From contig NC_087077.1 of the NCBI RefSeq assembly GCF_026151205.1, positions 1,736,001-1,800,000 on the forward strand: a DNA stretch of 64,000 nucleotides, in the 5' to 3' direction. This document shows, in pieces, positions 7,189-62,723 of this stretch. Below the pieces are notes generated by a model. That model saw only the letters and a list, made by a program, of their open reading frames with translations. It was not told the DNA's origin and did no database searches. Position numbers and translations under genes: made by a program. Position 1 is the first letter of the stretch. Each line of letters opens with the position of its first letter. Source of the DNA: Bolinopsis microptera. Taxonomy: Eukaryota; Ctenophora; Tentaculata; Lobata; Bolinopsidae.

Positions 7189-7408
7189 AAATCATCAAGG
7201 TTGGTTTTGCCGATGGCGGGTATCGATCCAGCAACCTTGCGATTACTGGCTCTACGCCGCGCCACTGGGCCACCAAGGCCCTTAATAATGAGGGAATTAC
7301 ATAGGTACCAGAGTGCTCTACAAACTCATTACAAGTTAGGAGCTTTGCATTTAAGCTGAGCGGTAGATCTATTCATTCCCTAGAGTGCTCAAGCTTAGTA
7401 AACTAGGC

Positions 7409-7466
7409 GAGCATATTTATCCATAGACACAGTGTTTCGTCCTATTAGGACTCATCAGTATGGCTC
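7409..7466 (-). ncRNA. Hammerhead ribozyme 6
   Basis: Last copy of the motif, with complete core and stems. Beyond it only part of a unit remains, ending inside the tRNA-like segment at about 7538. Confidence 0.9.
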
Positions 7467-13878: not shown

Positions 13879-14420
13879 CTGAAGAGTATTCTGGTTAGAT
13901 TAATAAAATAATTCAAGAGGAGGTTAAAATCAGCAGTAATGTTATCTTGAATCAGGAGTGCTGTGCATCTACTATAAATTTGGCACTATACAGTGTTTTA
14001 CGGGATAAGTTTATGATGGATGCATTTAGTCATAAATGGGAGATGTAAGTCAAAATACATTATAAATAAGCAAAAAAGACAATTGCATTCCAGAAACTAT
14101 ATTTATTAACATGGACATGAGAAATAATGTATAATCAAGGTCAAATAATTAATGTTTCTGTAAACTATTTCGTATATAAATTATCGTCAATTATAGATAT
14201 TGTTACGTCATAACTATTATATATATATACATCCTATTGGGCTACAAAATTGCGTCTAAGATGATATGAAAGTTTTTGAGTTTAACTTAATCGTCAAGTA
14301 ATTCCCAAATTCATATATCTAAACGCGGATAAGGATAGATTTAAATTGCAGAATCTATATATTCATCATTTTTAAAAAAACATTTCAGATGATCAGATAA
14401 AATTAAACATTTTAACACTT
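13879..14420. repeat. Zinc-finger array spacer 6 (left part)
   Basis: Homologous to the other spacers until about 14420, where a LINE has inserted. The spacer continues at about 19103 with TTGACACGACGTC. Confidence 0.7.
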
Positions 14421-16547: not shown

Positions 16548-17544
16548 AGTGTGTCTTGTCAGTTAAAGATCCGGAGATTTTCCACTTTGTCTCGGCTTTT
16601 CTTCTTTGGCTTCTAAGTGCTTTATATTCACCATCGAACCAAGGGGCAGACTTACGTTCTTTGATTTCCTTTGTGAGGAGAGGAGCATGGTTATTCAGCA
16701 CAGTTAGGCACTTAGAGTTGTATAGGCTGATGCGGCTTTCAAATGACGGCATTTCAGCTTGTGATAGACCCTCAGGATCCATTACAGTAACCAATTCCTC
16801 AGCAAGATTATCCGCAAAACAATTTTTGTCAATTTCTTTGACATTTCTGAATGTGATAACTTTTTTCTTGTTGAGATTGCTTGCAACTGTTTTTGTGAGA
16901 CTAAAAGTAACCGGGAAATGGTCACAGTTTGGGAACATTTCCGAGGTGTTCGAGTCTACTGTGACACTCTTTGGATTGACTATCTGATGGGAGGAGATTA
17001 CAACATCCAGAATATGTCCTTTGTTGTGAGTTGGATCTCTCACGTATTGATGCAGTCCATAGCTGGCCAATACTTCAGTCAGTTTGGCCGTGTTTCTTGA
17101 TTTATGTTCATCCAAATGAATATTAAGATCACCACAGATTAAAAACTTCTTGTATTTCATGAATATGTTCCCAATAAACTCATCCAAATCTTCAAAAAAT
17201 ACATCAGTCAATGACCCTGGTCGGTAAACACAAGCACAGAGGACAGTATCACCCGATGAGTCCCGAAATTTGCCTAAAACTGCTTCAAACGTATCTCCAC
17301 ACTTATCAAACACAGGAGTAAGGTTCAAATCACTTGAATTGTAAATAATTCCAACTCCTCCGCCTCTGCATTTAGCGGAGTCTTTCCTGATGTAGTGAAT
17401 CAAGTTATAGCCGTAAGACTTGATGGTAGCAGTAACATCATTCTTCATGCTGGTGAGCCAAGTCTCAGTGACAAAAAGGACAGAGATTCTTTGGTCGATT
17501 ATAGATTCCATGATTGGTTGAATCTTATTATTGAGAGAAGTCAC
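16453..17544 (-). pseudogene. LINE AP-type endonuclease
   Basis: This region encodes the target-nicking APE endonuclease domain. Visible motifs are TETW (metal-binding Glu), RGGGVGI, VYRPGS, the GDLNIH active-site block, HILDVVI and the final CDHFPV with its catalytic Asp and His. The C-terminal part is the linker into the reverse transcriptase, reached only after a frameshift. The endonuclease catalytic residues themselves look intact. Confidence 0.85.
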
Positions 17545-21139: not shown

Positions 21140-22551
21140 GATGAAATCGTGCTGTCCTTCTGCAACAAAGCCCTGACAGATGGTATTGCGCCAGATCAGT
21201 GGAGGATAAGCAACATCATCCCCGTCCCCAAAAAGGGAGACTGGAAACTGGAGGGGGATATCTTTGACTTCACTTGTAGCTAAAACTCTTAATAGAATGG
21301 TGCTTAATAGGATCCAGCCGGCCATAGAGGGGGTACTTAGGGACACTCAGAATGGTTTTCGGGAAGGACGGTCCACTACTAGTCATATCTTGGCACTCAG
21401 AAGGATTCTAGAGGGGGCTAGACAGAGAAATTTACCGGCAGCTATGGTGTTTGTTGATTTTAAGAAGGCCTTTGATTCACTTCACAGGGGAATTTTGATG
21501 CAAATACTAAAGGCCTATGGAATACCGGACAGTATTGTAGATATCATTAATCTTCTCTATGTGAACACGAAGGGCAAAGTTATAACACCAGATGGGGATA
21601 CCGAGCTATTTGATATCCTGGCAGGAGTTCTCCAAGGGGATACATTAGCACCATACTTGTTCATTATAGCCCTTGACTATTGCATGAGACAAGCCTTAAG
21701 CAAGCACCCTGAAATAGGATTTACCATTAAGCCTTATCGGAGTAGGAGAGTCAAGGCGGAGAAGATATCAGACACTGGTTTTGCAGATGACATTGCTCTG
21801 ATAGCAAAAACTGTAAAGGAGGCAGAGATGCTGATGCTAGAGGTAGAAAGAGTTGCTGCTACAGTGGGACTTAGAATGAATGAAGGGAAAACCAAATTCA
21901 TTACTCAGAACATCGAGAACCCTGATACCATCAAGTCCCTGGGTAACAACACAATAGAGCACGTGGAAGACTTTACCTATCTTGGTTCTAGAATCAGAGA
22001 CAGTGAGAGTGATATCAGGGTTAGGAAAGGAAGAGCATGGGGAGCATGCCACACTCTCAAAAAACTTTGGAAATCTAACCTTAGAAAGTCTATCAAGACC
22101 ACAGTGTTCACAGCACTAGTCGAGTCGGTGCTTCTATACGGTTCCGAGACTTGGACTATGACGAAAAGGCTAGAGAAGATGGTCAATGGTTGCTATACAC
22201 GAATGTTAAGAATGGCCCTTAACATCAATCAATATCGAGACCATGTCAGCAACCACAGCCTGTACGGTGATCTCCCTAAAGTCAGCTCCAAGATAACCCA
22301 ACGAAGGCTTAGACTTGCAGGTCATGCTCACCGACATCCGGAGCTGACTCTGAACAAACTGATCCTCTGGAAGCCGAGTCATGGGCATACTAACAGGGGG
22401 CGACCTTACTTAACACTACTAGATAACCTAAAAGCAGATACTGGGCTGAAATCAGTAGATGAGATAGCTAGACTGATGGAGGACAGAAAGCTGTGGAGAA
22501 CTGTTGTCAATGGATCTCGGGAATACTACCCGCCTTAAGTCAAGTAAGTCA
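21140..22551 (+). mobile_element. RTE-like LINE, 5'-truncated, with 10-bp target duplication
   Basis: AGCTTCTCTG flanks the insertion at 21130-21139 and 22552-22561, inside the CR1/L2 fragment. The reverse transcriptase frame (21264-22538) has motif A FVDFKKAFDS, motif B GVLQGDTLAPYLF and motif C GFADDIAL, then a C-terminal region with YGSETWTMTKR. A 10-base deletion near 21242, relative to the copy at 35175-36981, shifts the frame upstream of 21264. The 3' end is an AAGTC-type pentamer tail after the TAA. It is truncated at the reverse transcriptase N-terminus, so it lacks an endonuclease. Confidence 0.85.
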
Positions 22552-23258: not shown

Positions 23259-24820
23259 TTATGAGACAGAGTTATTATTAGCATTGCGGTTGATGTTGCG
23301 CTCTGATTTCCTTAGTCCCGTTATATTGTATAACATAAAGTTGGGCCATTCGTCTGCAATGCCCTCGTTTTGTTGATCAATGAGCATGTTTTTTATGCAC
23401 CTTTTGTAGATGTTAAGGTTGAATAGACTTGGCAAGGAAGTTGCTGCGACACTATATCTGTTTATTGCTAGTAGTGGACCTTTGTAGAATACTGAATTAT
23501 TGTAAGGGTATTTACCGTATTCATCTGACCATGTAGTTGTAAGACTCGAATCCGGATCGGCGACGTTAAATATTGGTGCACTGTTAGGTATTGTTTTCTT
23601 TATAGAGGGAGGCACTAAACTTGGGAAGTTTTTCAGCTTATGTATAAAAACTAATGCGTTCTTTACGATGATACTATGAACTGTCAATATTTTGTGTACA
23701 TAGAAACCAGACTTGGTACTTGCTGGTGGTATACCATCTTTGTACCAGTAATTAACAAAACCTGGTAGTATTGCTCTAAGACCCATTTTTTGTTTTACAA
23801 ATAGTGTTTCTATGTGGGATTTGTCAGCAAAACCCCAGACGAGGGAGCAGTAATTAAGGTGAGACTGCACAAAGCTGTGATATATTTGTAAACGTGTTTC
23901 CAGAGGCAAATATTTTTTAAGTTTGTACATGACTCCAATGTATCTGGCCATTTTCATTTTCATGGCAGAAATATGTTGCGACCAGTTCAGTTTGTTATCT
24001 ATTATAACTCCTAAGAAACGGGCTTCTGTTTTTCTTTCGATTGTGACACCAGAAATTACTACATCGCGATAAATGAGGTTTCTTTGCCGAGAAAAGATCA
24101 TATAATTCGTTTTTTTAAGATTTAGAGCTAATCCGTTGTTATCTACCCATTTAACTAAGACATCGCTAAGAATTTTGAGCTTATCATAAACCTCGTTTAT
24201 ATTTTCTCCTGTTAGGAAAATGTTTGCATCATCTGCGTACATGATGAAATTAGCTATTTCTGATATTTGAGGAAGATCGTTTATGTAGATTATAAAAAGG
24301 AGAGGTCCCAAAATTGAGCCTTGGGGTACACCGTAAATAATGGGGTTGGCTGAGGATTCAGAGGATCCAATTGATACAAACTGGTTTCTGTTCATAAGAT
24401 ATGATTTAAACCAGTTTAAAGCTAGACCTCTTATGCCATAGTGCTCGAGCTTATTCAGGAGTATGGAGTGATCCACAAGGTCAAAGGCTTTGCTAAAGTC
24501 AATCAAAAGGAGCAAAGTAACTTGCTTTTTGGACATTGAATTGAGGATTCTGTCTTTAGCATTAAGAAGGGCATGTTCACAAGACCTACCTGGGCGGAAG
24601 CCGTATTGATTTTCACAAAGTATATTGTAGGTATCCAAAAAATTTATGACTCGATTGTGCATAAGCTTATCGTAGACTTTTGAGAAAGTGGCAAGTAGAG
24701 ATATCGGTCTGTAATTTTTGATGTCAGTTTTAGATCCACCTTTATGTACAGGAACTACTTTTGCCGTTTTCAAGGCCTGGGGAAAGACCCCTTGTTCGAA
24801 CGAGCTGTTAACAACGTGGT
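23259..24820 (-). pseudogene. LINE reverse transcriptase (CR1/jockey-like), 5'-truncated
   Basis: An open reading frame of 504 aa from its first Met, with the same frame running upstream to about 24820. Motifs are NYRPISLLATFSKVYDK, motif A LIDFSKAFDLVDH, motif B GVPQGSILGPLLF and motif C MYADDANIF, all intact. The C-terminal region includes LNYCSLVWG. The endonuclease and ORF1 are missing, as expected for truncation during insertion. The 3' UTR probably extends to about 23050. Confidence 0.8.
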
Positions 24821-24985
24821 TGTTGTGATTTTGTATAATGTTGAAATTATTATTATTTGAAAAATAGTGAAATTGTGTAGTTTTGTGTGGTGATTTTTGC
24901 TATTTAGTTGTTTGTGAAGTTTTCGAAAATACTGTTGCACTGAACTTTAAAATTATTAAATTTCAATTTATTATTATTATTATCA

Positions 24986-26417: not shown

Positions 26418-29400
26418 ATAAATAAATAAATAAATAAAGTCAATTTTTACAGCACAGCAATATATATCTAAATATCAGATCCTCTGTAATCATAATGTAT
26501 AAAAAAAGGAGCTTTTCTCTGTGCTGAAGGATGAATCAAGGCAGATCATGGTTCTGTTAGCAGGCCACCCTAGTTATGGACAATACATATATATAAAATA
26601 ATTAAATTATAATTTTAAAATGTGTCAAGATTGAACTAAAACATAACTCAGGGTAAAATAGACGTATTCCCTTCGTCAAATTAACTATTTACAATACTAA
26701 ACTTAAACGAACTCCGGGTAAAATAAACGTAATCCCTTTGTCAAACTTGCTATTTACAATAAGTTAATAAATTAATACGGTTGAAAATTATTTCATATTC
26801 AATAACAATGTAGCATCAATATAATTGATACAAATGAGGAGCATACATAGCAGTGAGAATTGCACATAACAGGAGGACTGGAGGTATGGAGCAATAATGA
26901 TTGACAGTGCACCTTTCCACTGATGTTCCTAATTTCCTGTAATAGCTTAATAGGCATGGAAATACTTTGATTGCAGGGGATAGATTGGATTCACTTTAAA
27001 TGTACTGAGATAACTTAACCGAAATAACATAACTGCCTAGATACATTGGCTAGTGTTGGGTGGGATCATGAATTTATCGTAAGAGTTATCCCCTTGGTAA
27101 TTCTCATCAGTTAGCACCATATTCATAAGAGTTTCTTTGTATAACTTAGAAAATTTCTTAACGTCGTCACACTCTCTAAGGGACTTTGGTAATATGTTCC
27201 AGGCCTTAGTTCCTAGATAGTTAAACTCCTTGTGAGATCTTGATTTAGGAGTATAAAGATTGCAGTTTTCTGCCTCACGTGATCCACCAGAAATATACGA
27301 GAATTTCCCGATAAAATGCTTTGGACATGTTTCATTGATTATACGGTACATATATGAGCTAAGATGAACCTGTCGTCTCAAATGGAGAGGAAGCCATCCC
27401 ATATTTTTGTATACATTAACCGACCTCTCTCTGATGTTTACATCTAGGGCTATTTTAGCAACCTTTTTGTACATGATATCTAACTCTCCTAGTCGTTTTT
27501 TATATGTTCTTGACCAGATGGTGTCTAAGTAGTCAAAATGTGGCAACATAAGTGCATTAGCAAACATCTTCCTGAACTTAAGAGGGAGAAGTTTTTTTGA
27601 TCTATACATAGCACCAATTCTTTTGGATATCTTTTTCTTAATGTTATCAATATGTTCATTAAATGTCAATCTGCTGTCAACTATAAGTCCAAGGTACTTA
27701 TGGGATTTAGTTTCACAGATTACCAAAGTAAGGTCATCACAAATTTCAACAAGGATGGCATCAAGGTTAGGCTTAGAGTCAAGGATCATTAGTTTTGTTT
27801 TTTCATTATTCAGGGATAGTTTATTAGCCTGAAGCCATCTGATAACTAAATTCAACTCTTGTTTGATGTTACCATAGTTTCCTCTAGATATATTGTCAAA
27901 ATATAATGCACCGTCATCAGCAAATAGATAAGGTTTAGAAAATAGGCATGCATTAGGCAGGTCATTGATAAAAATGCTGGATAGAATTGGTCCTAATATA
28001 CTTCCTTGAGGCACTCCAGAGTTCAATGAATGTAAACTGCTTATCCTACTCCCAACTCTAGTTTGCTGTAATCTATCTGTGAGGAAGCTCCTAAACCAGC
28101 TCAATGCAGTATCTTTTATTCCATAATGCTTCAGCTTTTGAATGAGAATATCATGGTTAACAGTATCAAATGCCTTTCTGATGTCCAGGAAGATAATTGC
28201 AGGATGCTTGGCACTGTTCTTAGCAGTAAATATACGATCAAACAGATCTAACATGAGATAAGTTGTAGAGTGATCTTTACGGAAACCATATTGATGCTCT
28301 GAAAGTATTCCCTTTTCATCAAGATATTGAGTCAGTTGGGAGTTCACACAAAATTCGATGCACTTTCCAAGAATCGGTAAAATTGAGATTGGTCGATAAT
28401 TACTAGGATTCTCAGTATCACCATCCTTATGGATTGGGGTGACTTTTGCAACCTTGCAGCTGTTTGGCATGATGCCACTGGATAAACTCAAATTTACAAG
28501 ATGTGTTAATGGAGCAATAAATGCAGGTAAAATTTGTCTAAACACTCTCAATGGTATATGATCATTAGTGGATTTGCTACAAGGGATACTTGCCACATAG
28601 TCTAAGATATTGGACTCAGTTATTTCAGTAAAGCTATTCAAGCTGGTCTCGTTGTCAATCTGCTCATTTTGTAGATAAGATAGAAATTCATTTTCATTTT
28701 CCAGCTGCACTTCTGCTTGGATCTTTGGACCTATTTCAGCAAAATATTTATTGTCGGTTTCAGCATCAAGATTGTTATTGATATTGTTAGCTTTAACAGG
28801 CAGATTTGATGCTGTCTTTATCGTTTTCCATACACCCTTTAGATCATTCATGGCACACTTGGCTTTCAGTTCTGTTGCTAAGTTAGTCTTCCTATTAATT
28901 CTAGACAAATAGGTTGAATAGTTTCTCTGCCGTTTATATGCCATCCATAATGAGTCACATTTATTACAGTGTATAAGACCATTTGGATGTATACGTCTGT
29001 TCTTGTTGTGTGTTAAAAATTTACGGTAAAGTTTCCCTTTCAATTTCTTACTTTCTAAAAATTCTGGAGATGGCTTATGGATGTAATCACTATGGCACTT
29101 AATTTGTTTAATTGGACAGAAGTGATCATAGTAGTGATCAATATGTTCGTTTAAACCATCAACTGCATCATTCAGACTAGTTGAATCTATTATTGGTCTA
29201 TAATCACAAGTTTCCAAAAATTCTTTAAGAGCAGTAACATTCATTTTGCTGTGATCTCTTATTAGTAACTTCTTGAATTTTGAGGCCTTATGCACATTGA
29301 AATCGACAATGAACTTTACGACCTGATGATCTCCTATACAATCATCAAGGACTTTGCAGTCAAGAAACTTGGAGTAAGTGTTTGTTATGACAACATCGAT

Positions 29401-29718
29401 TGTGGTCTTTGTGATTCTGTTTCCTAGTTTAGCAATGCGGGTAATATCCTGAACTACCTGTACCATTCCAAACATTTTCATTGTAATGTCTAATTTCTTA
29501 TAGTTCATACTGCTGATGTTGTTTTGGTCTACATTTACATCACCCAGCCAAATAACATTATTACTTCCTATACTCATCATGCAGTCTGTCATATAATCTA
29601 AAAATTTGTCAAGAGGACTAACCAAAAGGTTCCAGTTGTCCAGGAAACTGTACGTAGCTGGTCAACTAGTTTTGAATTCAGACTAGGCTTGATGAGTTCT
29701 GGGGTTTCTAGACGTAAG
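26418..29718 (-). mobile_element. CR1/jockey-like LINE, 5'-truncated, with (TTTA)n tail
   Basis: A minus-strand LINE of 3.3 kb whose 3' end is the (TTTA)n tract at 26418-26441, preceded by TAAAAATTGACT. It starts inside the endonuclease domain at about 29718, next to the resumed zinc-finger spacer. The 3' UTR (26442-27036) has no other feature. Confidence 0.8.
27037..29625 (-). CDS. LINE endonuclease (partial) and reverse transcriptase, 862 aa open frame
   Basis: This is the longest open frame in the window. Residues 1-120 are the second half of an AP endonuclease (WLGDVNVD, TTIDVVIT, IGDHQVVKF). The reverse transcriptase follows: NYRPISILPILGKCIEF, motif A FLDIRKAFDTVNH, motif B GVPQGSILGP, and motif C LFADDGALY, with both aspartates present. 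The N-terminal part of the endonuclease appears only in another frame at 29630-29715, so the element cannot be fully active although the polymerase looks intact. The real start is not preserved; the listed Met is just the first in frame. Confidence 0.8.
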   Translation of the reverse strand: MVSPLDKFLDYMTDCMMSIGSNNVIWLGDVNVDQNNISSMNYKKLDITMKMFGMVQVVQDITRIAKLGNRITKTTIDVVITNTYSKFLDCKVLDDCIGDHQVVKFIVDFNVHKASKFKKLLIRDHSKMNVTALKEFLETCDYRPIIDSTSLNDAVDGLNEHIDHYYDHFCPIKQIKCHSDYIHKPSPEFLESKKLKGKLYRKFLTHNKNRRIHPNGLIHCNKCDSLWMAYKRQRNYSTYLSRINRKTNLATELKAKCAMNDLKGVWKTIKTASNLPVKANNINNNLDAETDNKYFAEIGPKIQAEVQLENENEFLSYLQNEQIDNETSLNSFTEITESNILDYVASIPCSKSTNDHIPLRVFRQILPAFIAPLTHLVNLSLSSGIMPNSCKVAKVTPIHKDGDTENPSNYRPISILPILGKCIEFCVNSQLTQYLDEKGILSEHQYGFRKDHSTTYLMLDLFDRIFTAKNSAKHPAIIFLDIRKAFDTVNHDILIQKLKHYGIKDTALSWFRSFLTDRLQQTRVGSRISSLHSLNSGVPQGSILGPILSSIFINDLPNACLFSKPYLFADDGALYFDNISRGNYGNIKQELNLVIRWLQANKLSLNNEKTKLMILDSKPNLDAILVEICDDLTLVICETKSHKYLGLIVDSRLTFNEHIDNIKKKISKRIGAMYRSKKLLPLKFRKMFANALMLPHFDYLDTIWSRTYKKRLGELDIMYKKVAKIALDVNIRERSVNVYKNMGWLPLHLRRQVHLSSYMYRIINETCPKHFIGKFSYISGGSREAENCNLYTPKSRSHKEFNYLGTKAWNILPKSLRECDDVKKFSKLYKETLMNMVLTDENYQGDNSYDKFMIPPNTSQCI

Positions 29719-30080: not shown

Positions 30081-31497
30081 AATAATAATAATAAGTAGGA
30101 ATTTATACATCGCTTTATAGCCATAAAGAACTCAAAACCCAAAGATTCAGTTCAAACCATCTAAAGCGACTCATGAGTAACATGTACATAAGAACTTATT
30201 TTTATGAAGTATGGATTTTATGAGAAAGGTAATACATGATACTTATACAAATACGTTTTCAAAGAGATGAGTTTTTAGTTTCTTTTTAAATAAGACGATA
30301 TCGGTTAGTGTTCTCAATTGATAAGGAAGCTTATTCCAAACAGAGGGTCCGCAGTAGCTGAAACTTCTCTCGGTTTTACTATAGTTTGAAATAGGAGGAA
30401 CATTTAGGAGGAAATAGTCTTCTTCAGTTCTTAGTACACGTACAGGTTGACTTTTGATGTCAATACATTTGATGATATACTCCGGCGCTATGTTGTTAAC
30501 GCATTTGAACACGGTTAGAGCAATCTTATACTCTATTCGTTGTCGTATTGGAAGAAAATGGGCTTTTTTCAGGAATGGAGTGACACTGTCCCATTTTTTG
30601 ATAGCTTTCCAACCAAACAAGAATCGAACACAGGAATTTTGTACCTTCTGGAGTTTCTTTATTAGAAGATCAGGTAAACCGTATAAGAGTCCATTGCAGT
30701 AGTCTAGTTTTGAAAAGATCAAGCAGTGAATGAGCTGTCTTTTTAGATCATAGTTAAGCTTTGAGCCTATAACTCGAAGGTTTCTCAGATGGATGTTGCA
30801 GCAACTGATAATTGAATTTATTTGGTCTTCAAATGTTAGGAATTGATCAAATAGGACACCTAAACTTTTCACTGTGCGGGATGCCTCCACAGGGTCAGCT
30901 GCATTGTCAAGTTGTATTGAATCGACTGGACATGAAGAGTAACTGTTCTTGGTCTGTACTACAAGAGCTTCTGTTTTGTTTTGGTTCAGTTTGAGTTTAT
31001 TTTGGGTCATCCAGGTCTTAATATCTTCAAAACAATTTGTTATTCTCTCTTCGATTGTTGAGAGATCTCGAAATAGTGGGTTAAACTCAATGTACAGTTG
31101 AGTGTCATCTGCGTACATGTGGATGTTAAATCCATGTCTCTTTGCGATCTGATTGAGCTCCTTTGTGTAAAGTATAAACAGAATTGGACCTAGAATTGAA
31201 CCTTGCGGGACTCCAATTCTAAGGAAGCATCTCTTTGATCTTGATTTATCAATAGTTACTGTGAAGGATCTGTTATTAAGGTATGATGTAAACCATTCGA
31301 GAACAGTACCTTCAAAACCAAAGTCCTTTTTTAGTTTTTTTAGGAGCAAGTGATGATTTACAGTATCAAAAGCAGCACTGAGGTCCAAAAGGAGGAGGAT
31401 AACCTTACTTTTCATGTCACTGATACAAAGAAGATCATTGTAGATGGTAAGGGTCGCAGTTTCGCAGCTATGATTTGACCTATAACCACAGTATTGG
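30081..31497 (-). mobile_element. L2-like LINE, 5'-truncated, with (TTA)n tail
   Basis: The tail on the minus strand is (TTA)n at 30081-30096. The reverse transcriptase frame runs from about 31497 (YRSNHSCETA) through motif A LLDLSAAFDTVNH, motif B GVPQGSILGPILF and motif C MYADDTQLY to its stop at 30243. Palm residues are intact, but the protein lacks everything before motif A's upstream region, so it cannot act on its own. Confidence 0.8.
30243..31415 (-). pseudogene. L2-like reverse transcriptase fragment, 390 aa
   Basis: Visible parts are motif A with DLSAAFDTVNH near residue 12, GVPQGSILGP near 70, YADD near 101, and the CR1/L2 C-terminus (LDYCNGLLYGL, AHFLPIRQRIEYK, WNKLPYQLR). A frame discontinuity lies just upstream of the first Met (31412-31497), where the same protein continues in another frame. 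It is a truncated retroelement product, not a host gene. Confidence 0.8.
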
Positions 31498-32845
31498 TAA
31501 CTATGTATGTTTCAGTTAAACAAAAAAATTCAGTTAAACAAAAATTCAATTTTATGCCATTTATTACAGAGTAAACAAGTTTACAATAAATCAATTTTAT
31601 ATTTAAAGGAATCCTAATTCAATGCGTAGTATAGTTGTCACTCTTTAAATATATTAGATGTAGGTTGACAGGGCAAAGGAGTGTTTGTGCTGTTTGCTAT
31701 TGCTCACACCAAACGGCAACCTAGTAAATGTTTTGTACGGACACCGGTCTCCATCACGATACAAAATTAGGATTGTAGAATTTTTGTCAAAATCTTTATT
31801 TTTCACTTTAATTTAAGTTATATTAATATAATAAATTCAAATCTTATGATATTGTTATTATCTTAACAGTTACTATTGTAGCTAAAGATTTTAAATTTGT
31901 ATTCCTTGTATTCCTTGTATTCCTTGTATAACTTTTAGTGCAGTGGAGGGAGCGGTGTGGTGCATTAATAGAGTGACAGCCTACTGATTTAGAGTTGTTT
32001 TTAAGTGAGCATAATGGGTATATTTTTGGACCTAAAGGCTTTACTACGACAACTTTAAAATTGGTTCTTTTAATCATTTATTAAATATCACTTAAAAAAT
32101 ATATAAATCTGGAATCTGTTCACACTGTGAACCAGTCCTATAAAAAAACCCTCTTCAATTAAATATTAAAAACGTCTCAATAATGGAAATAGTCATACAA
32201 TTAAGAAATTTACCAAATTCTTAATATCAACCTTTAGAGAAAAATACCTACCTAAGTCAATGTCTACCTGTAATACACTAATTATTAGGTTAAATACATA
32301 GGTGGTGGAGTCAGCACACATTTACCAAAATCAAAATTTTTTAATAGGAGGAACCTGTGGGCCGAGAACACTGGATTAAATTTGTTGAAGGGGATTGTTT
32401 TCAAATGACAGCTGCATTATGTCATAATCGCTTGAAGTCCATGCTGAATCATTATAAGCATGTTGCAGCTTTAGAAGTGTCTTTTTCAGGCGACTTTTAG
32501 CAAGGCTAATCTTGTAGGAGTAGTCAAAAAGCTTAAGTTTAGGGGCAATTGTGCTCCAATTGTGTTTCCAGTCTGGAAGGTCTGGGAATTCCAAACTCGG
32601 CAATCCTTAACTGCTCTAGAGATTCAAAATTTATCCAAATCTGCAGTGAACTTGTAAATAATGATGACCTCAAACAAAGATCTGTATTTCTACAGGGCCC
32701 ACCCACGCTTATCTGGGGAGTCTTGTCCCTATATTAGACGGCCAATGCTCTATCCATTGGTATGTATTAATCTAATCTAATCTACGCGGCCTTACCCAGG
32801 CCTGTTATAAATGGGGAGTCCCTCTTAGAACGACCAGTGCTAGAC
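31498..32845. other. Unassigned repeat-rich stretch
   Basis: No credible gene was seen. It contains a TTGTATTCC tandem run at about 31899-31930, resembling a CR1-type 3' tail, and an AATCT run at 32766-32783, another likely retroelement tail. A 75-codon minus-strand frame (32376-32603) has no recognisable relatives. GGGGAGTC-type sequence is repeated at 32716 and 32813. Confidence 0.4.
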
Positions 32846-33787
32846 CAGTGGCGTAACGCTGTGCGGGGGGGCGCCGTCTTAGGGGGGCGCAAAATCGTCG
32901 TTTGAATGTTGGACAATTTCGAAAACTTAACTTAAGTACTAGGAAAACTGCGCTATTTGCTCTAGATACAGTTTTGATACTTTCAACACTACTATATAAC
33001 AAATAATTTGAGGATGTACCATGGAAGTCTAGAGTACCCGCAACAAGAAATGCAGCTGTAAACGACTTGGTAACGGGGTGCATGTGAGCTCTGGGGGCCA
33101 GTGGCATCAGAAGACTGGCTATCAGCCTTGAAAATAAGATGAGTTCTTTAGATTCATGTCACATCTGCACTGCATCTCCATCACAATGACACAAACACTC
33201 TCTCCTTCACTACCCTACCCTACCCTAGCCTAGCCCTACCCCTCCCTCCTTTTACCTGTTGCGGGTACTCTGGACTGCATGGACATCCTTGAATAGAGGT
33301 ATTTTATATAGTAGTGTTGTGGTATTATACTGTGTACATGTATATATATTCTATCCTATATATCAATATATTCTATATCTATATATAATACTGTATCTTT
33401 TATATACAAACTTTTCCTTACCCCCGCCTCCCCTTCCTCTATAAATTGTACTCAAATCCCACACCCAACCTGCTATTGACTTACTAAATAACCTCTATAT
33501 CTCTACATTGGGCCATAGCAGTCCACCCCGCTCCCTTCCCCTCCCTCCCCTATTCCACCAAGCACCAACATCTCTCCAAATCACATCACAAACTTTCATG
33601 TAATTAGACCTTGTGTTCCTTTTTTATCTTATTTTGAAAATGATTTTGTTTAACTTTACCTCTCTACCTGATATCACTCACCCCTGTCAAAACTGTGTTA
33701 CTCTCATTATCTTATTTTCAGGCTGTTGGTTGGTTTGATGGTGCCCTGGCCCCCATCTCATTATGTGCTCCCTACCATCTATTCTTC

Positions 33788-36700
33788 ATGCAAGACAGAA
33801 CTCTTACTGAAGATAATTCTCGATCAACGAGATCGAGAAATAACTCCTCTCCCCTGGATGGAAATGTTATTGACTTTACGAAACCTATCACCATCACGAC
33901 GCCCGGATGCTATGTGCTTAGCAATCCTGACTCTGGTTGTAGAATCAGTCTCTTTCAGGATGTGTTTGCAAGCCAACTGTGTGACCAATTTTCCTCTGAA
34001 ATCGAAAATACTGGCACCCTTAAACAGTACAACACAATCCACAGGCAGTCTCAGGCGCCACTTGCACTTCCAAGACTCTCGTCATGGTTTGGACCCGTAG
34101 ACTATGCGTTCTCAGGAATCGTAATGAAAGCTAATTCTGTCTCCCAATGTCCTCGCCTTATTGCAGCATATCAGAACATGGCCGAAAACCTCTTCACACC
34201 CAACAACATTGATTGCTTTTTGATCAACCAGTACTGCTTTTTGATCAACCAGTATAGAACTGGACGTGATTCCTGTGGTGAGCACAGTGACAACGAGCCA
34301 GAGGTCGACCTCTCAAAACCTGTCGTTACTCTGTCACTTGGCCAACAGCGCCGCATGCTCATCAGAGAGGCTAAGAACCCTGGAAATGCCATCACAGTCA
34401 AACTCGACCAGGGTTCAGTTCTTGTAATGCATGGTACTGATTTCCAAAAGAAGTATACGCATCAAATACCCAAAGATAATGTGATCACTAATTCACGTAC
34501 CTCTGTGACCTACAGGACCTGCAGCTCCACTTTCCTAAGAAACCGAAGTGCCTTATCTACACCCCTGAAAGATATATCTATCACTCCTATACTTGCCCCC
34601 AAGACCCCTGGAGTCTCAGGCTCACCATCGCTACCTCTGCACAACAGACGTAGATCCTCCTTGTCTCTGTCTAGCTTCTCACAAGTTGACACCAGCTCAG
34701 TTGGGTCTCCAGTGGCCAGTAGTTCTCCTTCCATAACCAGCAGCAAAACATCAGTCTCTGATAGTGATACATTGCCTCTCAGCATAGATGCCATGCTTGA
34801 AGCCATTGATCTAATGAAAGACAAAACCGTGAAAAGCGAACTTTCTCGCCATGGCAGCACAAACTCTGGAACCCCTCTGGATTGTAAGAAAAGACTGAAG
34901 AAAGTTGCGAAAGCATGTCACAAACGCCTGAGCACGCTTCTTGCTGAGCCTCCAGTAGTCTCAGCTGAGCCCGAATGCATTACCCATTCCCTCCAAACTT
35001 TGGAAAACTCTGTTATTGATCTACAATCCAAAATAAGTCTACAACATAGCACCCTCCAAACACTTGTCTTATGTTCTGACAGTAATTCCAATCAAAAAGT
35101 TAGTGCCAGCCCCCCTAACCTGTCTAATGAACTCAACACTATGGACAAGAGACTTGAAAAGTTAGAGGATATAACTTGACTTACTTGACTTGACTTAAGG
35201 CGGGTAGTATTCCCGAGATCCATTGACAAAAGTTCTCCACAGCTTTCTGTCCTCCATCAGTCTAGCTATCTCATCTACTGATTTCAGCCCAGTATCTGCT
35301 TTTAGGTTATCTAGTAGTGTTAGGTAAGGTCGCCCCCTGTTAGTATGCCCATGACTCGGCTTCCAGAGAATCAGTTTGTTCAGTGTCAGCTCCGGATGTC
35401 GGTGAGCATGACCTGCAAGTCTGAGCCTTCGTTGGGTTATCTTGGAGCTGACTTTAGGAAGATCACCGTACAGACTGTGGTTGCTGACATGGTCTCGATA
35501 TTGATTGATGTTAAGGGCCATTCTTAACATTCGTGTATAGCAACCATCAACCATCTTCTCCAGCCTTTTCGTCATAGTCCAAGTCTCAGAACCGTATAGA
35601 AGCACCGACTCGACTAGTGCTGTGAACACTCTGGTCTTGATAGACTTTCTAAGGTTGGATTTCCAAAGTTTTTTGAGAGTGTGGCATGCTCCCCATGCTC
35701 TTCCTTTTCTAACCCTGATATCACTCTCACTGTCTCTGATTCTAGAACCAAGATAGGTAAAGTCTTCCACGTGCTCTATTGTGTTGTTACCCAGGGACTT
35801 GATGGTATCAGGGTTCTCGATGTTCTGAGTAATGAATTTGGTTTTCCCTTCATTCATTTTAAGTCCCACTGTAGCAGCAACTCTTTCTACCTCTAGCATC
35901 AGCATCTCTGCCTCCTTTACAGTATCTGCTATCAGAGCAATGTCATCTGCAAAACCAGTGTCTGTTATCTTCTCCGCCTTGACTCTCCTACTCCGATAAG
36001 GCTTAATGGTAAATCCTATTTCAGGATACTTGCTTAAGGCTTGTCTCATGCAATAGTCAAGGGCTATAATGAACAAGTATGGTGCTAATGTATCCCCTTG
36101 AAGAACTCCTGCCAGGATATCAAATAGCTCGGTATCCCCATCTGGTGTTATAACTTTGCCCTTCGTGTTGACATAGAGAAGATTAATGATATCTACAATA
36201 CTGTCCGGTATTCCATAGGCCTTTAGTATTTGCATCAAAATTCCCCGGTGAAGTGAATCAAAGGCCTTCTTAAAATCAACAAACACCATAGCTACCGGTA
36301 AATTTCTCTGTCTAGCCCCCTCTAGAATCCTTCTGAGTGCCAAGATGTGACTAGTAGTGGACCGTCCTTCCCGAAAACCATTCTGAGTGTCCCTAAGTAC
36401 CCCCTCTATAGCCGGCTGGATCCTATTAAGCACCATTCTATTGAGAGTCTTAGCTACGAGAGAAGTCAAAGATATCCCCCTCCAGTTTCCAGGGTTGGTC
36501 AAGTCTCCCTTTTTGGGAACCGGGATGATGTTACTTATCCTCCACTGATCTGGCGCAATACCATCTGTCAGGGCTTTGTTGCAGAAGGACAGCACGATTT
36601 CATCCAGGTCGCATCTTTTGAGGACTTCAGGTGGTATGCCGTCATCACCTGGTGCTTTACCTTCTTTTATCCTGTGTTTAGCAGCTTTAAGCTCATCCAC

Positions 36701-37544
36701 AGTAAAAGGTTCTGTACTGATGTTGAGTCCTTCAAATTGAGTCTCGATCCTAGGATGCTCGTTTTCCACATCCGGTATACTCCCTAACAGATTCGTGAAA
36801 TGCCCAAGCCAATTTTTCTTCCTTTCTTCGGCTCCGTTGCCCCTTATTTGAGTTGCCCCCTTGGCCTTCCTGCCAGTTATCTCATTTATGACATTCCAAC
36901 TTTCTTTGTTTTTGCATCTGTCTGCAGCCATTTCGACCCTTCTAACCTTGGCAACTAGATCTTCTTCAAAGATCTTCTTCAAGGATATAATGAGCAGCAT
37001 AAACGAAAAACAACATGAAACTGCCACCTCCCTTAAAGCCTTCGAAGCAGATGTCACTGCAATTAAGAACAAAGTAGATGACTCTAAGGCCTGCCTACAG
37101 TCTCTCCAGCTTAATGACCGCACCAACCCATCAAGAAAAAAGCCATCGCCTCATCCTCAAAACCAGAACCACCCAACCCACAGCCCTAGTAGACAAACGC
37201 GAAAACCAAAAAAGGTTCTACTCCTACATGACTCCCAGATGAACAACTTTCTACCTGAGTCATTTTCCTCTGGGTTCAAGGTGGAAAAAATGAAAGTAGG
37301 CTCTTATACTGACATGATAAAAGACCACTGTATGAGAGATGTCATTAAACAGCCAGAGGTCGACTGTTACATTCTCCAGCTTGGAGTCAACGACTACAGA
37401 TACAGAACCTGCTCTGTTAATAAAGCGATTGAGGATGCAAAATCAGTCATCGATAAACTCCTCTCGAGCTCCAGCGCAAAGGTTGTCATCTCCCTACCCA
37501 CCCCAACCCCTGGATTAATCAGTGAACTTACCAACCAAGGCTAG
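33788..37544 (+). pseudogene. LINE ORF1: AlkB-like dioxygenase, coiled coil and SGNH hydrolase, split by an RTE insertion
   Basis: Start chosen at the Met at 33788, just before the conserved part; an upstream Met at 33695 is in frame. The AlkB domain (33940-34530) has NQYRTGRDS, the HSDNE metal motif, LSLGQQRRM, a third metal His in YTHQIPK, and R-x5-R (RTSVTYR) for 2-oxoglutarate. This closely resembles ALKBH2/3-type demethylases. A low-complexity Ser-rich linker and a coiled coil follow. The frame is cut at 35174 and resumes at 36991 once the RTE-like element and its AGGATATAA duplication are discounted. The last part is an SGNH/GDSL-like hydrolase (LLHDSQ, then LQLGVND), ending early at 37542-37544. 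About 646 codons overall before insertion. A 7-codon tandem duplication lies at 34215-34256. Confidence 0.8.
35175..36981 (-). mobile_element. RTE-like LINE inside ORF1, with 9-bp target duplication
   Basis: AGGATATAA flanks it at 35166-35174 and 36982-36990. On the minus strand it runs from the linker before the reverse transcriptase (ESWNVINEITGRK) through motif A FVDFKKAFDS, GVLQGDTLAPY and GFADDIAL to the YYPP end and an AAGTC-type tail. The open frame (to 35195) is uninterrupted, and its first 40 or so codons up to the junction come from host sequence. It is a close relative of 21140-22551 and lacks the 10-base deletion of that copy. The endonuclease is missing through 5' truncation. Confidence 0.87.
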
Positions 37545-37894
37545 CAAACCCGCTTGGTAGTAAGCACTGTAACAGTATCCTCAGACGAGAATACTTTAAG
37601 CAACGCAACAAGCATAGCAATTTTGTAAACAGTAAGAAAGTAGCTTTCCTTAAGAAGTTAAATGAAGCTATAGAAGAAGGTCACATACTCGACTGGAAAA
37701 AATTTAAACGGCTTAAACAAGAACATGACACTAGCCCCTTACTTGACAAATTTGATTTAGCTAGCTTCCATGACTTCTTTGCATCCCTTTATAAAAAACC
37801 AGACCAGGAGCCAGATCTCACTCACCACAATCACAAACATTACCCTGAACCACCAGATCTGGATATCCTAAATAAGCTCATGTCAGAATCTTAA
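37545..37894 (+). pseudogene. Linker region of the LINE, with nonsense codon
   Basis: In the frame of the downstream reverse transcriptase this encodes a basic, helical stretch (KKLNEAIEEGHILDWKKFKR) and FASLYKK, typical of the region just before a LINE reverse transcriptase. A TAA at 37892-37894 separates it from the frame at 37895. No AP endonuclease motif was seen between the SGNH domain and here. Confidence 0.6.
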
Positions 37895-39907
37895 GTGACC
37901 TCTGCCATCAAAAATCTCAAAAAAGGTAAAAGTTGCTCAAACGACTTGATATCCAACGAGATGCTTCAGAGCGTAACTCCGCTTTGTCTCAAAGCCATCC
38001 TCAAAAACTTCAACCACTCACTGGTCTCTGGTTACTATCCATGGCACACCAGCATCATTACTCCTATTTACAAGTCTGGCAACCCTTTCAGCCCGGACAA
38101 CTACAGAGCAATAGCTGTTGGTAGCTGTATGGGTAAACTATTTTCTAGCATCTTACTTGAGCGTCTCCTGCACTTCAAAAAGCTCTACTGCCCTGACCCA
38201 AAAGAACAACTAGGGTTCTCGAAGGGTGCTCAAACAAATGACCACGTTTTTACCCTTAAGACAGTCATTGACAAATATACCAAGGTTAAAAAAGCTCGCC
38301 TCTATGCATGCTTTGTTGATCTAAGAAAGGCCTTTGACACTGTATGTAGGGACCTCCTTCTGCACAAAATCACATGCCTTGGAATAACTGGAAACTTCTT
38401 CAATTGCCTAAGTGATATGTATAGAAACTCAATAGCTCATATAAAAATCTCCAAACTCTTGTCCCCTAATATTGACATTGGAAAAGGAACAGAGCAGGGA
38501 CACCCCCTATCACCGGACCTTTTTAAAATCTATATCAACGACTTGTCATCTCTCCTGAAATCTGTTGGTGATTATCCTATTCTAGCTGACGTCCTAATAT
38601 CACATCTGCTCTGGGCTGACGATCTTGTCCTACTTGCCCTAAGTCCCAAGGCCTTGCAAGACAATATAAACATCCTATTCGACTTCTGTAACTCTAACAT
38701 GGGCCTTGAAGTAAACATTAAAAAAACCAAGATTCTCATATTCTGCCCTCCTAAAAGAAAACAATCCTATGAAACATTCATTTTGGGAGGCCAGCCCATC
38801 CAACACACCGAAAAATACTGCTATCTTGGCATTATATTCCACAGAAATGGATCTTTTACAGCAGCAAATACTGAACTGAGGGCCAAGGCTCTCCGTGCTC
38901 TCTATGGCCTCAAAGGCAATATCGTCAAAGATGCCCTCTCTCACCGTTCCCTAAACATTCTATTTGACTCTCTAATAAAACCGATACTGCTCTATGGCTG
39001 CCAAATCTTATGTCCTCACTCAAAAACCATGAGATACCTCTCCAAAACAGATAGCAAAGCCAACCCCCAGCATACTCTCAGGTACATCTCACAAGACCAC
39101 TATGAAAGATTCCACCTTAAGTTTATCAAGTGGTCCTTGTCTGTCCATTCAAAAGCATCAAATATAGGCTGCTGGGGCGAAAGTGGGCGCCACCCCCTCT
39201 TCTTTGAAGCCTGCAAACTTGCAATAGATTTCTATAGTCGTCTTGAAAGCACTGAAAATGAACTTCTCTCCGCTGCATTTCACGAGCAGATTATGCTGGG
39301 CCTTCCTTGGTACACCAACATCTCTAATCTTCTCACCAAATATAACTTCCCCCACTCATCCTCTTCAAAATCCAAGCTCTCTACCCAAATCAGTCACAAC
39401 ATGAGGGAAGAATTTGTGGATACCTGGAAATCTGCCAAGGCATCCTCACCTAAATTAGAATTCTACAATCAAATTAAACATGATTTTGAACCAGAAACAT
39501 ACTTAGGAGTGGTTAAGATCCCCGATGCTCGGAAAAGCTTAACAAGGTTTCGTATTAGCTGCCACAATCTTTACATTGAGAGGGGCCGCTACGAAACCCC
39601 CCTAGTACCAAGAGAACATCGATGGTGCACTTTTTGCTTTTTCAGCAAGGGGCTTAAGCCTATTGAGGACGAAATTCATGTTCTAACTGACTGTTTACTC
39701 TACTCCTCAGTTAGAGAAAAATTTAACTTCCATCCCAAAAATATTACTGACCTAGCCGGTTTGCTATCCGATAAAACACTAGACCCTACAAAATTTACTG
39801 CCACAGCAAGAGCAATCCATTCAATTCTCTCTGTGAACGAAAATTTTACAGCCTACTATAAGAGCCCAGATTTCCACTCAAATACTGGCCAATGCATAAT
39901 GCTATAG
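37895..39907 (+). CDS. LINE reverse transcriptase, 670 aa open frame
   Basis: The frame opens just after a TAA; the first Met replaces a GTG-type position, so the true start lay further upstream. Motifs: NYRAIAVGSCMGKLFS, motif A CFVDLRKAFDTV, motif B GTEQGHPLSPDLF and motif C LLWADDLVLLA, with both aspartates kept. A C-terminal zinc-binding motif (WCTFC, then EIHVLTDC) is seen near residues 590-615. It ends at TAG 39905-39907. Motif B with GTEQGHPLSP differs from the GVPQGS form of the CR1/L2 copies here, so this is a distinct LINE lineage. The polymerase itself looks intact. Confidence 0.8.
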   Translation: MTSAIKNLKKGKSCSNDLISNEMLQSVTPLCLKAILKNFNHSLVSGYYPWHTSIITPIYKSGNPFSPDNYRAIAVGSCMGKLFSSILLERLLHFKKLYCPDPKEQLGFSKGAQTNDHVFTLKTVIDKYTKVKKARLYACFVDLRKAFDTVCRDLLLHKITCLGITGNFFNCLSDMYRNSIAHIKISKLLSPNIDIGKGTEQGHPLSPDLFKIYINDLSSLLKSVGDYPILADVLISHLLWADDLVLLALSPKALQDNINILFDFCNSNMGLEVNIKKTKILIFCPPKRKQSYETFILGGQPIQHTEKYCYLGIIFHRNGSFTAANTELRAKALRALYGLKGNIVKDALSHRSLNILFDSLIKPILLYGCQILCPHSKTMRYLSKTDSKANPQHTLRYISQDHYERFHLKFIKWSLSVHSKASNIGCWGESGRHPLFFEACKLAIDFYSRLESTENELLSAAFHEQIMLGLPWYTNISNLLTKYNFPHSSSSKSKLSTQISHNMREEFVDTWKSAKASSPKLEFYNQIKHDFEPETYLGVVKIPDARKSLTRFRISCHNLYIERGRYETPLVPREHRWCTFCFFSKGLKPIEDEIHVLTDCLLYSSVREKFNFHPKNITDLAGLLSDKTLDPTKFTATARAIHSILSVNENFTAYYKSPDFHSNTGQCIML

Positions 39908-40844
39908 GACCTCAAAAATAGTATTATAAAACATTTCTATTTTATCCCTACACATTTGTAAATAACTAGAATTGTGTAACCTTAAATTATTTCAGAATTA
40001 TAACTATTGTGAATTCAATAAAATAATTATCACTTTTGTATCCTTGTATCCTTGTATCCTTGTATCCTACACACTTTTTTAGAGATTTTACTGGCGTATT
40101 TTCTAAAATCACCTAATTTGTTCAATTTTAGGGAGGGGCACCAAAAGCGCCAACAGGGGGGCGCTTTTTTCGGCGGGGGGGGCCAACAGGCAACGTTACG
40201 CCAATGTGCTAGACACTGTACTGTTTACTACTGACTGAATGGAAATCTACTGAACTCTTTGGATTGGTAGAACCTGTCTGGTTACATGAACAATGGAGCT
40301 AGTTTCTAGATTAACTCACATGATATTATTGCCGACTTAGGCTGCTTGGATGCATCAAATCTCAACTATTTTTTGGTGTGTTACTTTGTTTTGGGCTTTA
40401 CTTGTAAGCTTTATTGAATGTATCCATAAAATTGCAATTCCATTGATATTTATAACTTGAGAAAATTTTTCTACCAAAAACGTTTTCGATCGGGAATCAA
40501 ATTATTTTGGGGAATATCTTGATATAACGACGTTGTCGTAATGACACAAGTGACTAGGATCAACCACCTTATTTGATAGTTTTAAAAAATAAAGTATTTA
40601 TATTTTTAACTTAGGGTGTTAATCTTTTTAAGGATTTTATTTTTCTATTTCAGATCTATCGTGCTATTTGTTACTAAAAAGCTCATTGTAGCCTATAATA
40701 ATTAGATTTTCATCATCATGATGTATTTAACTCAAAGTAAAGTCAAAGTAAAGCAAAATTTATGACTGATGACATCATCACACATGTCCACAAAATACAT
40801 CGCACTATGTGAATAATTTGAAAACTGGCCACGGGCTTGATTCA

Positions 40845-42260: not shown

Positions 42261-45200
42261 TCGTATTTTAAAACAAGTTACTCGGGCCCCGTTCGTAGAG
42301 AAGATAGATTTGCTGTGTTTTAAAACAAGTTACTCGTGCCCAGTTCGCAGAGAAGATAGATTTGCTGTATTTTAAAACAAGTTACCCGTGCCCAGTTCGC
42401 AGAGAAGATAGATTTGCTGTATTTTAAAACAAGTTACTCGTGCCCAGTTTGCAGAGATTATAGATTTGCTGTATTTCAAAACAAGTAACTCGGGCCCAGT
42501 TCGCAGAGAATATAGATTTGCTGTATTTCAAAACAAGTAACTCGGGCCCAGTTCGCAGAGAAGATAGATTTGCTGTATTTTAAAACAAGTAACTCGGGCC
42601 CAGTTCGTAGAGAAGATAGATTTGCTGTATTTTAAAACAAGTAACTCGGGCCCAGTTCGCAGAGAAGATAGATTTGCTGTATTTTAAAACAAGTAACCAG
42701 TTTGCAGAGAAGATAGATTTGCTGTATTTTAAAACAAGTAACTCGTGCCCAGTTTGCAGAGAAGATAGATTTGCTGTATTTTAAAACAAGTAACTCGTGC
42801 CCAGTTTGCAGAGAAGATAGATTTGCTGTATTTTAAAACAAGTAACTCGTGCCCAGTTTGCAGAGAAGATAGATTTGCTGTATTTTAAAACAAGTGACTC
42901 GTGCCCAGTTCGCAGAGAAGATAGATTTGCTGTATTTTAAAACAAGTGACTCGTGCCCAGTTCGCAGAGAAGATAGATTTGCTGTATTTTAAAACAAGTA
43001 AACAGTTTGCAGAGAAGATAGATTTGCTGTATTTTAAAACAAGTAACTCGGGCCCAGTTTGCAGAGGAGATAGATTTGCTGTATTTTAAAACAAGTAACT
43101 CGTGCCCAGTTCGCAGAGAATATAGATTTGCTGTATTTTAAAACAAGTAACTCGTGCCCAGTTCGTAGAGAAGATAGATTTGCTGTATTTTAAAACAAGT
43201 AACTCGGGCCCAGTTCGCAGAGAAGATAGATTTGCTGTATTTTAAAACAAGTAACCAGTTTGCAGAGAAGATAGATTTGCTGTATTTTAAAACAAGTAAC
43301 TCGTGCCCAGTTTGCAGAGAAGATAGATTTGCTGTATTTTAAAACAAGTAACTCGTGCCCAGTTTGCAGAGAAGATAGATTTGCTGTATTTTAAAACAAG
43401 TAACTCGTGCCCAGTTTGCAGAGAAGATAGATTTGCTGTATTTTAAAACAAGTGACTCGTGCCCAGTTCGCAGAGAAGATAGATTTGCTGTATTTTAAAA
43501 CAAGTAAACAGTTTGCAGAGAAGATAGATTTGCTGTATTTTAAAACAAGTAACTCGTGCCCAGTTTGCAGAGAAGATAGATTTGCTGTATTTTAAAACAA
43601 GTAACTCGTGCCCAGTTTGCAGAGAAGATAGATTTGCTGTATTTTAAAACAAGTAACTCGTGCCCAGTTTGCAGAGAAGATAGATTTGCTGTATTTTAAA
43701 ACAAGTAACTCGTGCCCAGTTTGCAGAGAAGATAGATTTGCTGTATTTTAAAACAAGTAACTCGGGCCCAGTTCGTAGAGAAGATGGATTTGCTGTATTT
43801 TAAAACAAGTAACCAGTTTGCAGAGAAGATAGATTTGCTGTATTTTAAAACAAGTAACTCGTGCCCAGTTCGTAGAGAAGATAGATTTGCTGTATTTCAA
43901 AACAAGTAACTCGGGCCCAGTTCGCAGAGAAGATAGATTTGCTGTATCTTAAAACAAGTAAACAGTTTGCAGAGAAGATAGATTTGCTGTATTTTAAAAC
44001 AAGTAACTCGTGCCCAGTTTGCAGAGAAGATAGATTTGCTGTATTTTAAAACAAGTAACTCGTGCCCAGTTTGCAGAGAAGATAGATTTGCTGTATTTTA
44101 AAACAAGTAACTCGTGCCCAGTTTGCAGAGAAGATAGATTTGCTGTATTTTAAAACAAGTAACTCGTGCCCAGTTTGCAGAGAAGATAGATTTGCTGTAT
44201 TTTAAAACAAGTAACTCGTGCCCAGTTTGCAGAGAAGATAGATTTGCTGTATTTTAAAACAAGTAACTCGTGCCCAGTTTGCAGAGAAGATAGATTTGCT
44301 GTATTTTAAAACAAGTAACTCGTGCCCAGTTTGCAGAGAAGATAGATTTGCTGTATTTTAAAACAAGTAACTCGTGCCCAGTTTGCAGAGAAGATAGATT
44401 TGCTGTATTTTAAAACAAGTAAACAGTTTGCAGAGAAGATAGATTTGCTGTATTTTAAAACAAGTAACTCGTGCCCAGTTCGCAGAGAATATAGATTTGC
44501 TGTATTTCAAAACAAGTAACTCGTGCCCAGTTTGCAGAGAAGATAGATTTGCTGTATTTTAAAACAAGTAACTCGTGCCCAGTTTGCAGAGAAGATAGAT
44601 TTGCTGTATTTTAAAACAAGTTACCCGTGCCCAGTTCGCAGAGAAGATAGATTTGCTGTATTTTAAAACAAGTTACCCGTGCCCAGTTCGCAGAGAAGAT
44701 AGATATGCTGTATTTTAAAACAAGTGACTCGTGCCCAGTTCGCAGAGAAGATAGATTTGCTGTATTTTAAAACAAGTAACTCGTGCCCAGTTTGCAGAGA
44801 AGATAGATTTGCTGTATCTTAAAACAAGTAACTCGTGCCCAGTTCGCAGAGAATATAGATTTGCTGTATTTCAAAACAAGTAACTCGGGCCCAGTTCGCA
44901 GAGAAGATAGATTTGCTGTATTTTAAAACAAGTAAACAGTTTGCAGAGAAGATAGATTTGCTGTATTTTAAAACAAGTAACTCGTGCCCAGTTTGCAGAG
45001 GAGATAGATTTGCTGTATTTTAAAACAAGTGACTCGTGCCCAGTTTGCAGAGAAGATAGATTTGCTGTATTTTAAAACAATTAACTCGTGCCCAGTTCGC
45101 AGAGAATATAGATTTGCTGTATTTCAAAACAAGTAACTCGTGCCCAGTTTGCAGAGAAGATAGATTTGCTGTATTTTAAAACAAGTAACTCGTGCCCAGT

Positions 45201-45845
45201 TTGCAGAGAAGATAGATTTGCTGTATTTTAAAACAAGTTACCCGTGCCCAGTTCGCAGAGAAGATAGATTTGCTGTATTTTAAAACAAGTTACCCGTGCC
45301 CAGTTCGCAGAGAAGATAGATATGCTGTATTTTAAAACAAGTGACTCGTGCCCAGTTCGCAGAGAAGATAGATTTGCTGTATTTTAAAACAAGTAACTCG
45401 TGCCCAGTTTGCAGAGAAGATAGATTTGCTGTATCTTAAAACAAGTAACTCGTGCCCAGTTCGCAGAGAATATAGATTTGCTGTATTTCAAAACAAGTAA
45501 CTCGGGCCCAGTTCGCAGAGAAGATAGATTTGCTGTATTTTAAAACAAGTAAACAGTTTGCAGAGAAGATAGATTTGCTGTATTTTAAAACAAGTAACTC
45601 GTGCCCAGTTTGCAGAGGAGATAGATTTGCTGTATTTTAAAACAAGTAACTCGTGCCCAGTTTGCAGAGAAGATAGATTTGCTGTATTTTAAAACAAGTA
45701 ACTCGTGCCCAGTTCGCAGAGAATATAGATTTGCTGTATTTCAAAACAAGTTACTCGTGCCCACTCCGAGAAGATAGATTTGCTGTATTTTAAAACAAGT
45801 TACTCGTGCCCAGTTCGTAGAGAAATCAGAAAATAGATTTACTGT
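42261..45845. repeat. Satellite of 52-bp units, about 68 copies
   Basis: The unit contains GCAGAGAAGATAGATTTGCT followed by GTATTTTAAAACAAGTAACT and CGTGCCCAGTTT. Interspersed shorter units of about 44 bp lack the CTCGTGCC part. Variants (TTCG/TTTG, AAGATAG/AATATAG, GTGCC/GGGCC) are arranged in blocks, and about 617 bp centred on a GATATGCTG variant is repeated (44702 and 45319), so there is higher-order structure. It has no open frame because 52 is not a multiple of three. Confidence 0.92.

Positions 45846-50457: not shown

Positions 50458-62723
<12,266 letters not shown>

Follow-up and report, generated by a model that had tools for sequence, protein, structure and literature searches.

A decayed ctenophore LINE with an AlkB-type dioxygenase domain fused to an esterase-type ORF1 protein

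A stretch of 64,000 nucleotides from the ctenophore Bolinopsis microptera (contig NC_087077.1, positions 1,736,001 to 1,800,000 of the forward strand; hereafter the window) contains a long interspersed nuclear element (LINE) whose first open reading frame (ORF1) joins an AlkB-type dioxygenase domain to a coiled coil and an SGNH hydrolase domain. On the sequence evidence, this AlkB-SGNH fusion is real and is part of the retrotransposon. The window copy itself is dead and decayed. The dioxygenase appears to be of the ALKBH2/3 type, and as part of an esterase-type ORF1 protein (ORF1p) it may clear methylation that blocks reverse transcriptase (RT) from the element's own RNA, a reading in which we place about as much trust as doubt.

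AlkB, coiled coil and SGNH domain in ORF1

The first piece of ORF1 in the window (33788..35173, plus strand), delimited by tblastn and translation, encodes the N-terminus, the AlkB domain, a Ser/Pro-rich linker and the start of the coiled coil. Residues 1-491 of a relative, P0001, aligned to 33695-35173 with 90% identity (tblastn). The AlkB-type 2-oxoglutarate (2OG)-Fe(II) dioxygenase domain was placed at 33974..34516 (plus strand) by the Pfam model PF13532, the match to ALKBH3 and the motif positions. PF13532 matched residues 111-291 of the window ORF1 protein with 77.2 bits (cut-off 31.2; expect value (E) 2.5e-21). As this score is far above the cut-off, the match is not due to chance. Human ALKBH3 was the top PDB sequence match of the window AlkB piece (E 2.2e-12). 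The HxD motif (HSDNE) begins at 34283 and RTSVTYR (RxSxTxR) at 34496; between them, at 34460, lies the distal His, within KKYTHQIP (34448). HxD, the distal His and two active-site Arg are all present, and the order and spacing of AlkB enzymes that the preliminary description had read in these motifs was confirmed. A tandem 20-nt repeat lies within the AlkB piece at 34214-34254; relatives do not have it.

A search with the window ORF1 protein gave 30 matches, comprising 29 proteins designated as family A and P0030. Twenty of the 29 were aligned (alignment A1). Hosts were given for five family A matches, all of them ctenophores (three Bolinopsis microptera and two Mnemiopsis leidyi), and the Bolinopsis proteins P0003 and P0005 were 96% and 93% identical to the query across about three quarters of it. 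All AlkB and SGNH motifs were found within one protein in 23 of the 29, with AlkB first in 23/23; the remaining six were pieces of 295-549 aa. The 23 fused proteins were 603-781 aa long (717-781 aa in 19 of them), and AlkB, coiled coil and SGNH occurred together in single proteins of this range. PF13532 matched all 20 A1 members at E <= 0.01, and the residues for iron and 2-oxoglutarate were invariant in the 27 family A matches that cover them. The SGNH residues were likewise conserved in intact members (Ser 25/25, Gly 25/26, Asn 26/26, Asp 26/26 and His 26/26). Two GDSL Pfam models matched 8 and 6 of the 20 relatives at E <= 0.01, a limit used here in place of the curated cut-off (best 3.3e-5). 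The structure model predicted an SGNH fold for family A, together with a long helix at residues 474-529 corresponding to the coiled coil. Mean identity within family A was 62% in AlkB and 60% in SGNH, versus 14-42% elsewhere past the N-terminus. A PHD-like motif, searched with a regular expression, was found in none of the 29 proteins. These intact relatives bear out the earlier proposal that a single ORF1 protein of a LINE unites the AlkB-type dioxygenase with the coiled coil and the SGNH domain.

A second set (P0030-P0149) consists of at least 120 diverse AlkB-SGNH proteins with the layout (PHD)-coiled coil-AlkB-SGNH, in clusters of up to 71 member sequences. Ligand residues were counted in all 120 proteins with profiles built on the rows of A1 and of a second alignment, A2. 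Among the matches covering each site, His was kept in 115/117, Asp in 112/117, the distal His in 119/119 and Arg in 114/119. A2 holds 32 of the 120 rows, chosen after the motif table had been seen, and its near-invariance is thus not independent. The PHD-like motif was found by regular expression in 39 of the 120 proteins, and in 36 of the 58 with at least 600 aa; of the Pfam models for PHD, PF00628 matched 9/32 and PF16866 3/32 second-set proteins. When family A was aligned with the second set by hhalign, the AlkB parts matched at E 1e-19 (24% identity) and the SGNH parts at E 1.2e-8 (17% identity). Neither A1 nor A2 had relatives among the viral contigs searched. The search of genome contigs with A2 gave two Bacteroidales loci matching residues 514-616 only (27%), which were taken as bacterial SGNH proteins and set aside.

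Six relatives of ORF2 were scanned with Pfam. RVT_1 was found in all six and an endonuclease above the cut-off in four; in P0151 the endonuclease fell under the cut-off, and the Mnemiopsis gene model P0168 showed none. This pairing of endonuclease and RT in ORF2 is that of non-long-terminal-repeat (non-LTR) elements of the apurinic/apyrimidinic endonuclease (APE) type, although the endonuclease is deleted in the window. The coiled coil and SGNH domain are those of an esterase-type (Type IV) ORF1p, and ORF2 lies downstream both in the window and in the Mnemiopsis gene order. The Mnemiopsis genes for ORF1 and ORF2 bear consecutive numbers (ACHWQZ_G008545 and ACHWQZ_G008544), with contigs of equal size. 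P0020 (ORF1) and P0162 (ORF2) also share a contig size, 6189, compatible with one element. For this linking through contigs of equal size, the 29 family A and 120 second-set ORF1 proteins were compared with the best 120 of 860 ORF2 matches. Family A gave two coincidences where the shifted mean was 0.24, and the genes of one pair are numbered consecutively. The second set gave two against 1.47, which is uninformative, and one of these cannot fit the contig. No relatives of the ORF2 alignment (A3) were found in the viral contigs. By these characters the element is classed as a ctenophore LINE with endonuclease and RT in ORF2; it is present in many copies, and no fewer than two ctenophore genera carry it. 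Five ORF2 relatives (P0200, P0222, P0229, P0234 and P0250) are filed under bacterial metagenome-assembled genomes (Moritella, Saccharospirillaceae) and are probably animal DNA in those assemblies.

Possible role of the dioxygenase

The AlkB domain of family A was nearest human ALKBH3 by profile and by predicted fold. The family A profile scored ALKBH3 at 98.9 bits, the best second-set protein at 62.4 and ALKBH2 at 54.4, and structural alignment gave about 28% identity with ALKBH3 and 21% with ALKBH2. The second-set profile scored its best family A protein at 71.7 bits, ALKBH2 at 60.5 and ALKBH3 at 56.8. In a tree of 70 rows (23 from family A, 45 of 92 motif-filtered second-set rows and two human stretches), ALKBH2 joined ALKBH3 and family A stood beside both, on long branches and with just the two human references.

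ALKBH3-type enzymes take 1-methyladenine (m1A) and 3-methylcytosine (m3C) off single strands, and both modifications interfere with common RTs. Among the PDB matches, 8jnr shows the enzyme bound to 3mC DNA. The presumed task of ORF1 proteins is to package element RNA, according to the available part of PMC3905857. In ordered two-template relay (OTTR), which uses the R2 RT, m1A impeded cDNA synthesis, and treatment with AlkB cleared m1A and m3C and increased the capture of most 3' tRNA halves (PMC12140624, available part). A predicted demethylase is placed within an RNA-coating protein and the modifications hinder RT; therefore, template repair is the best explanation. We infer the catalysis of the AlkB domain, its substrate and its place in the cycle from the domains, their order, the conserved active site and ORF2, all of which were observed. 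In intact copies the coiled coil would make ORF1p multimerise on element RNA. Ahead of target-primed reverse transcription or in the course of it, the AlkB domain would strip RT-stalling methyl groups, most likely m1A and m3C, from this RNA, with nascent single-stranded cDNA as a possible further substrate. For the SGNH domain we envisage the membrane or lipid function that has been put forward for other ORF1ps of the esterase type. A bolder reading, which we hold to be less likely than not, is that LINEs assembled an AlkB-SGNH ORF1 more than once, in two layouts, and that the ORF1 particle acts as a template-repair chaperone for its own RNA.

Two points weigh against template repair. The capture of intact tRNA in OTTR was only modestly altered by AlkB treatment (same part of PMC12140624), which argues that the block of RT by m1A is partial. 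In addition, the presumed substrate is drawn from a likeness to ALKBH3 at about 28% identity.

The dioxygenase may instead erase host marks such as N6-methyladenine (m6A) from element or host RNAs, by which these would evade readers, decay or sequestration with no lesion being repaired. An orchid Gypsy AlkB protein removes the methyl group of m6A in vitro, and such a role was proposed for it in that study; however, that protein is ALKBH5-like (PMC9289625, available part), whereas the family A domain is nearest ALKBH3 and ALKBH2. In human cells, moreover, m6A favours L1 and ALKBH5 suppresses it, as given in the available part of PMC7873242. We consider this explanation unlikely.

Both ALKBH3 and ALKBH2 act on DNA, the matched PDB entries are DNA complexes, and many second-set proteins carry the PHD-like finger, a chromatin-reading fold. 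The domain might thus repair alkylation damage in cDNA or at the target site, or clear methyl marks from DNA by the integration site. This seems quite improbable to us, as ORF1p is thought to package RNA and the PHD-like motif is missing from all 29 family A proteins. The AlkB fold might also serve solely for single-strand binding, its chemistry being a relic, much as SGNH-like proteins elsewhere lost catalysis and kept binding (PMC3905857, available part). The ligand residues, kept in 27/27 family A matches and near-completely in the second set, make this very doubtful, since binding alone needs none of them. A chance or host-exon fusion confined to the window copy, rearranged though this copy is by an insertion and a deletion, was rejected as hardly credible, because fused proteins occur in many records from at least two genera in one constant order; the AlkB region is not a host exon missing from other copies, as both motif sets are carried by the 23 relatives described above.

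The window copy and its surroundings

In the window, ORF1 is split by an antisense RTE-like non-LTR insertion (35175..36981, minus strand), in which Pfam gave RVT_1 only (about 35744-36520, E 1.5e-32); its RTE clade is our assumption from the motifs. The antisense element is younger than its insertion site in ORF1, since an exact 9-bp duplication, AGGATATAA, flanks it at 35166-35174 and 36982-36990. Piece 2 of ORF1 (about 36982..37538, plus strand; tblastn, P0005 residues 329-515, 99%) encodes the end of the coiled coil, followed by the beginning of the SGNH domain with HDSQ at 37227 and GVND at 37383. The SGNH piece alone remained under the Pfam cut-off (E 0.16), and it is called SGNH because the intact relatives and their fold show this domain. 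The preliminary description had read the AlkB motifs in the same frame as a coiled coil and an SGNH-like domain once the insertion is discounted. This held for the frame, which both pieces share when 1816 bases are discounted; the SGNH domain of the window is incomplete, its Asp-x-x-His block being deleted.

The deletion junction was located by tblastn at 37538..37539 (no strand assigned). At 37538 the sequence switches from ORF1 (P0005 residue 515) to ORF2 (P0150 residue 251), and this copy therefore lacks the C-terminus of ORF1, including the Asp-x-x-His of the SGNH domain, as well as the endonuclease part of ORF2. The remainder of ORF2 (37538..39904, plus strand; P0150 residues 251-1038, 97%) comprises a linker, the RT (about 38078-38836; RVT_1, Pfam E 8.5e-27) and the C-terminal part, with an in-frame stop at 37892. 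The 3' tail of the LINE (40036..40067, plus strand) has four TTGTATCC units, an 8-bp repeat that we presume to be suggestive of the CR1 clade, and no more than that. The 5' end of the LINE was not located, and no stretch of 8-20 bases was shared by 33120-33240 and 40055-40140 as its own target-site duplication. The LINE went into a hAT-like element that encloses it (32838..40214, no strand assigned). This element has 8-bp duplications, TGCTAGAC, at 32838 and 40207 and inverted ends, CAGTGGCGTAACG (32846) and CGTTACGCCAATG (40194), that differ by one base; the length of the duplications and the sequence of the ends lead us to take it as a member of the hAT superfamily.

Elsewhere in the window, positions 1018-25146 hold a cluster of zinc-finger genes that are interspersed with LINE remains. 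Many 84-bp tandem repeats were found in this range, and C2H2 zinc-finger ORFs lie on the minus strand at 1034-2242, 9358-10725 and 12616-13899. Five further RT ORFs were found at 14691-16562, 23262-24899, 27040-29661 and 30246-31511 (minus strand) and at 21210-22535 (plus strand). A satellite array at 42263-45824 has about 70 copies of a 52-bp unit, with some 45-bp spacings and a higher-order period of 305 bp. At 6023-7535 and 58334-59731 there are a 278-bp tandem array (97% matches) and a number of short tandem arrays of 10-30 bp.

Comparison with known systems

Of the two LINE proteins, ORF1p is understood less well. A putative demethylase fixed in it, with an active site kept at identities down to about 40%, points to base methylation of RNA or cDNA as a limit on retrotransposition, and the element offers a direct test of this. 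The capture of AlkB domains by RNA viruses and one plant LTR lineage would extend to an animal LINE lineage. If the template-repair reading is true, retrotransposition has an RNA-repair step of its own.

ORF1 esterases are already known. The esterase-type (Type IV) ORF1p of zebrafish ZfL2-1 (PDB 4c1b) likewise has, in ORF1 of a LINE, a coiled coil combined with an SGNH domain at the C-terminus, and no AlkB domain is described for this type in the available parts of PMC3905857 and PMC4120745. The SGNH likeness to 4c1b was weak, with E 0.11 for the second set, and the matches listed with family A did not include 4c1b. Human ALKBH3 and ALKBH2 share the fold and the HxD...H...R ligands and gave the best sequence and structure matches, but they are stand-alone host repair enzymes. 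Retroelements have reportedly gained other enzymatic domains in other positions, namely DNA methyltransferases in retrotransposons and viral helicases in insect LINEs. The AlkB domains of RNA viruses, to which structural matches were obtained, also belong to selfish RNA-copying elements, though of a different type; RNA repair was proposed for them by authors cited in PMC9289625 (available part).

Among the literature matches listed, from a search without preprints, Repbase and most subscription papers, there was no AlkB domain in a LINE and no AlkB-SGNH pairing, in line with the preliminary description, which knew of no such element. The nearest published case is the AlkB (2-oxoglutarate-dependent dioxygenase) ORF of a Phalaenopsis Ty3/Gypsy element, which is likewise a retrotransposon with an AlkB-type PF13532 domain. 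According to the available part of PMC9289625, it is an LTR element of an orchid with AlkB in a separate ORF, ALKBH5-like and active on m6A in vitro. In contrast, the ctenophore element is an animal LINE, known from sequence alone, whose ALKBH3-like AlkB domain lies inside ORF1 with a coiled coil and an SGNH domain.
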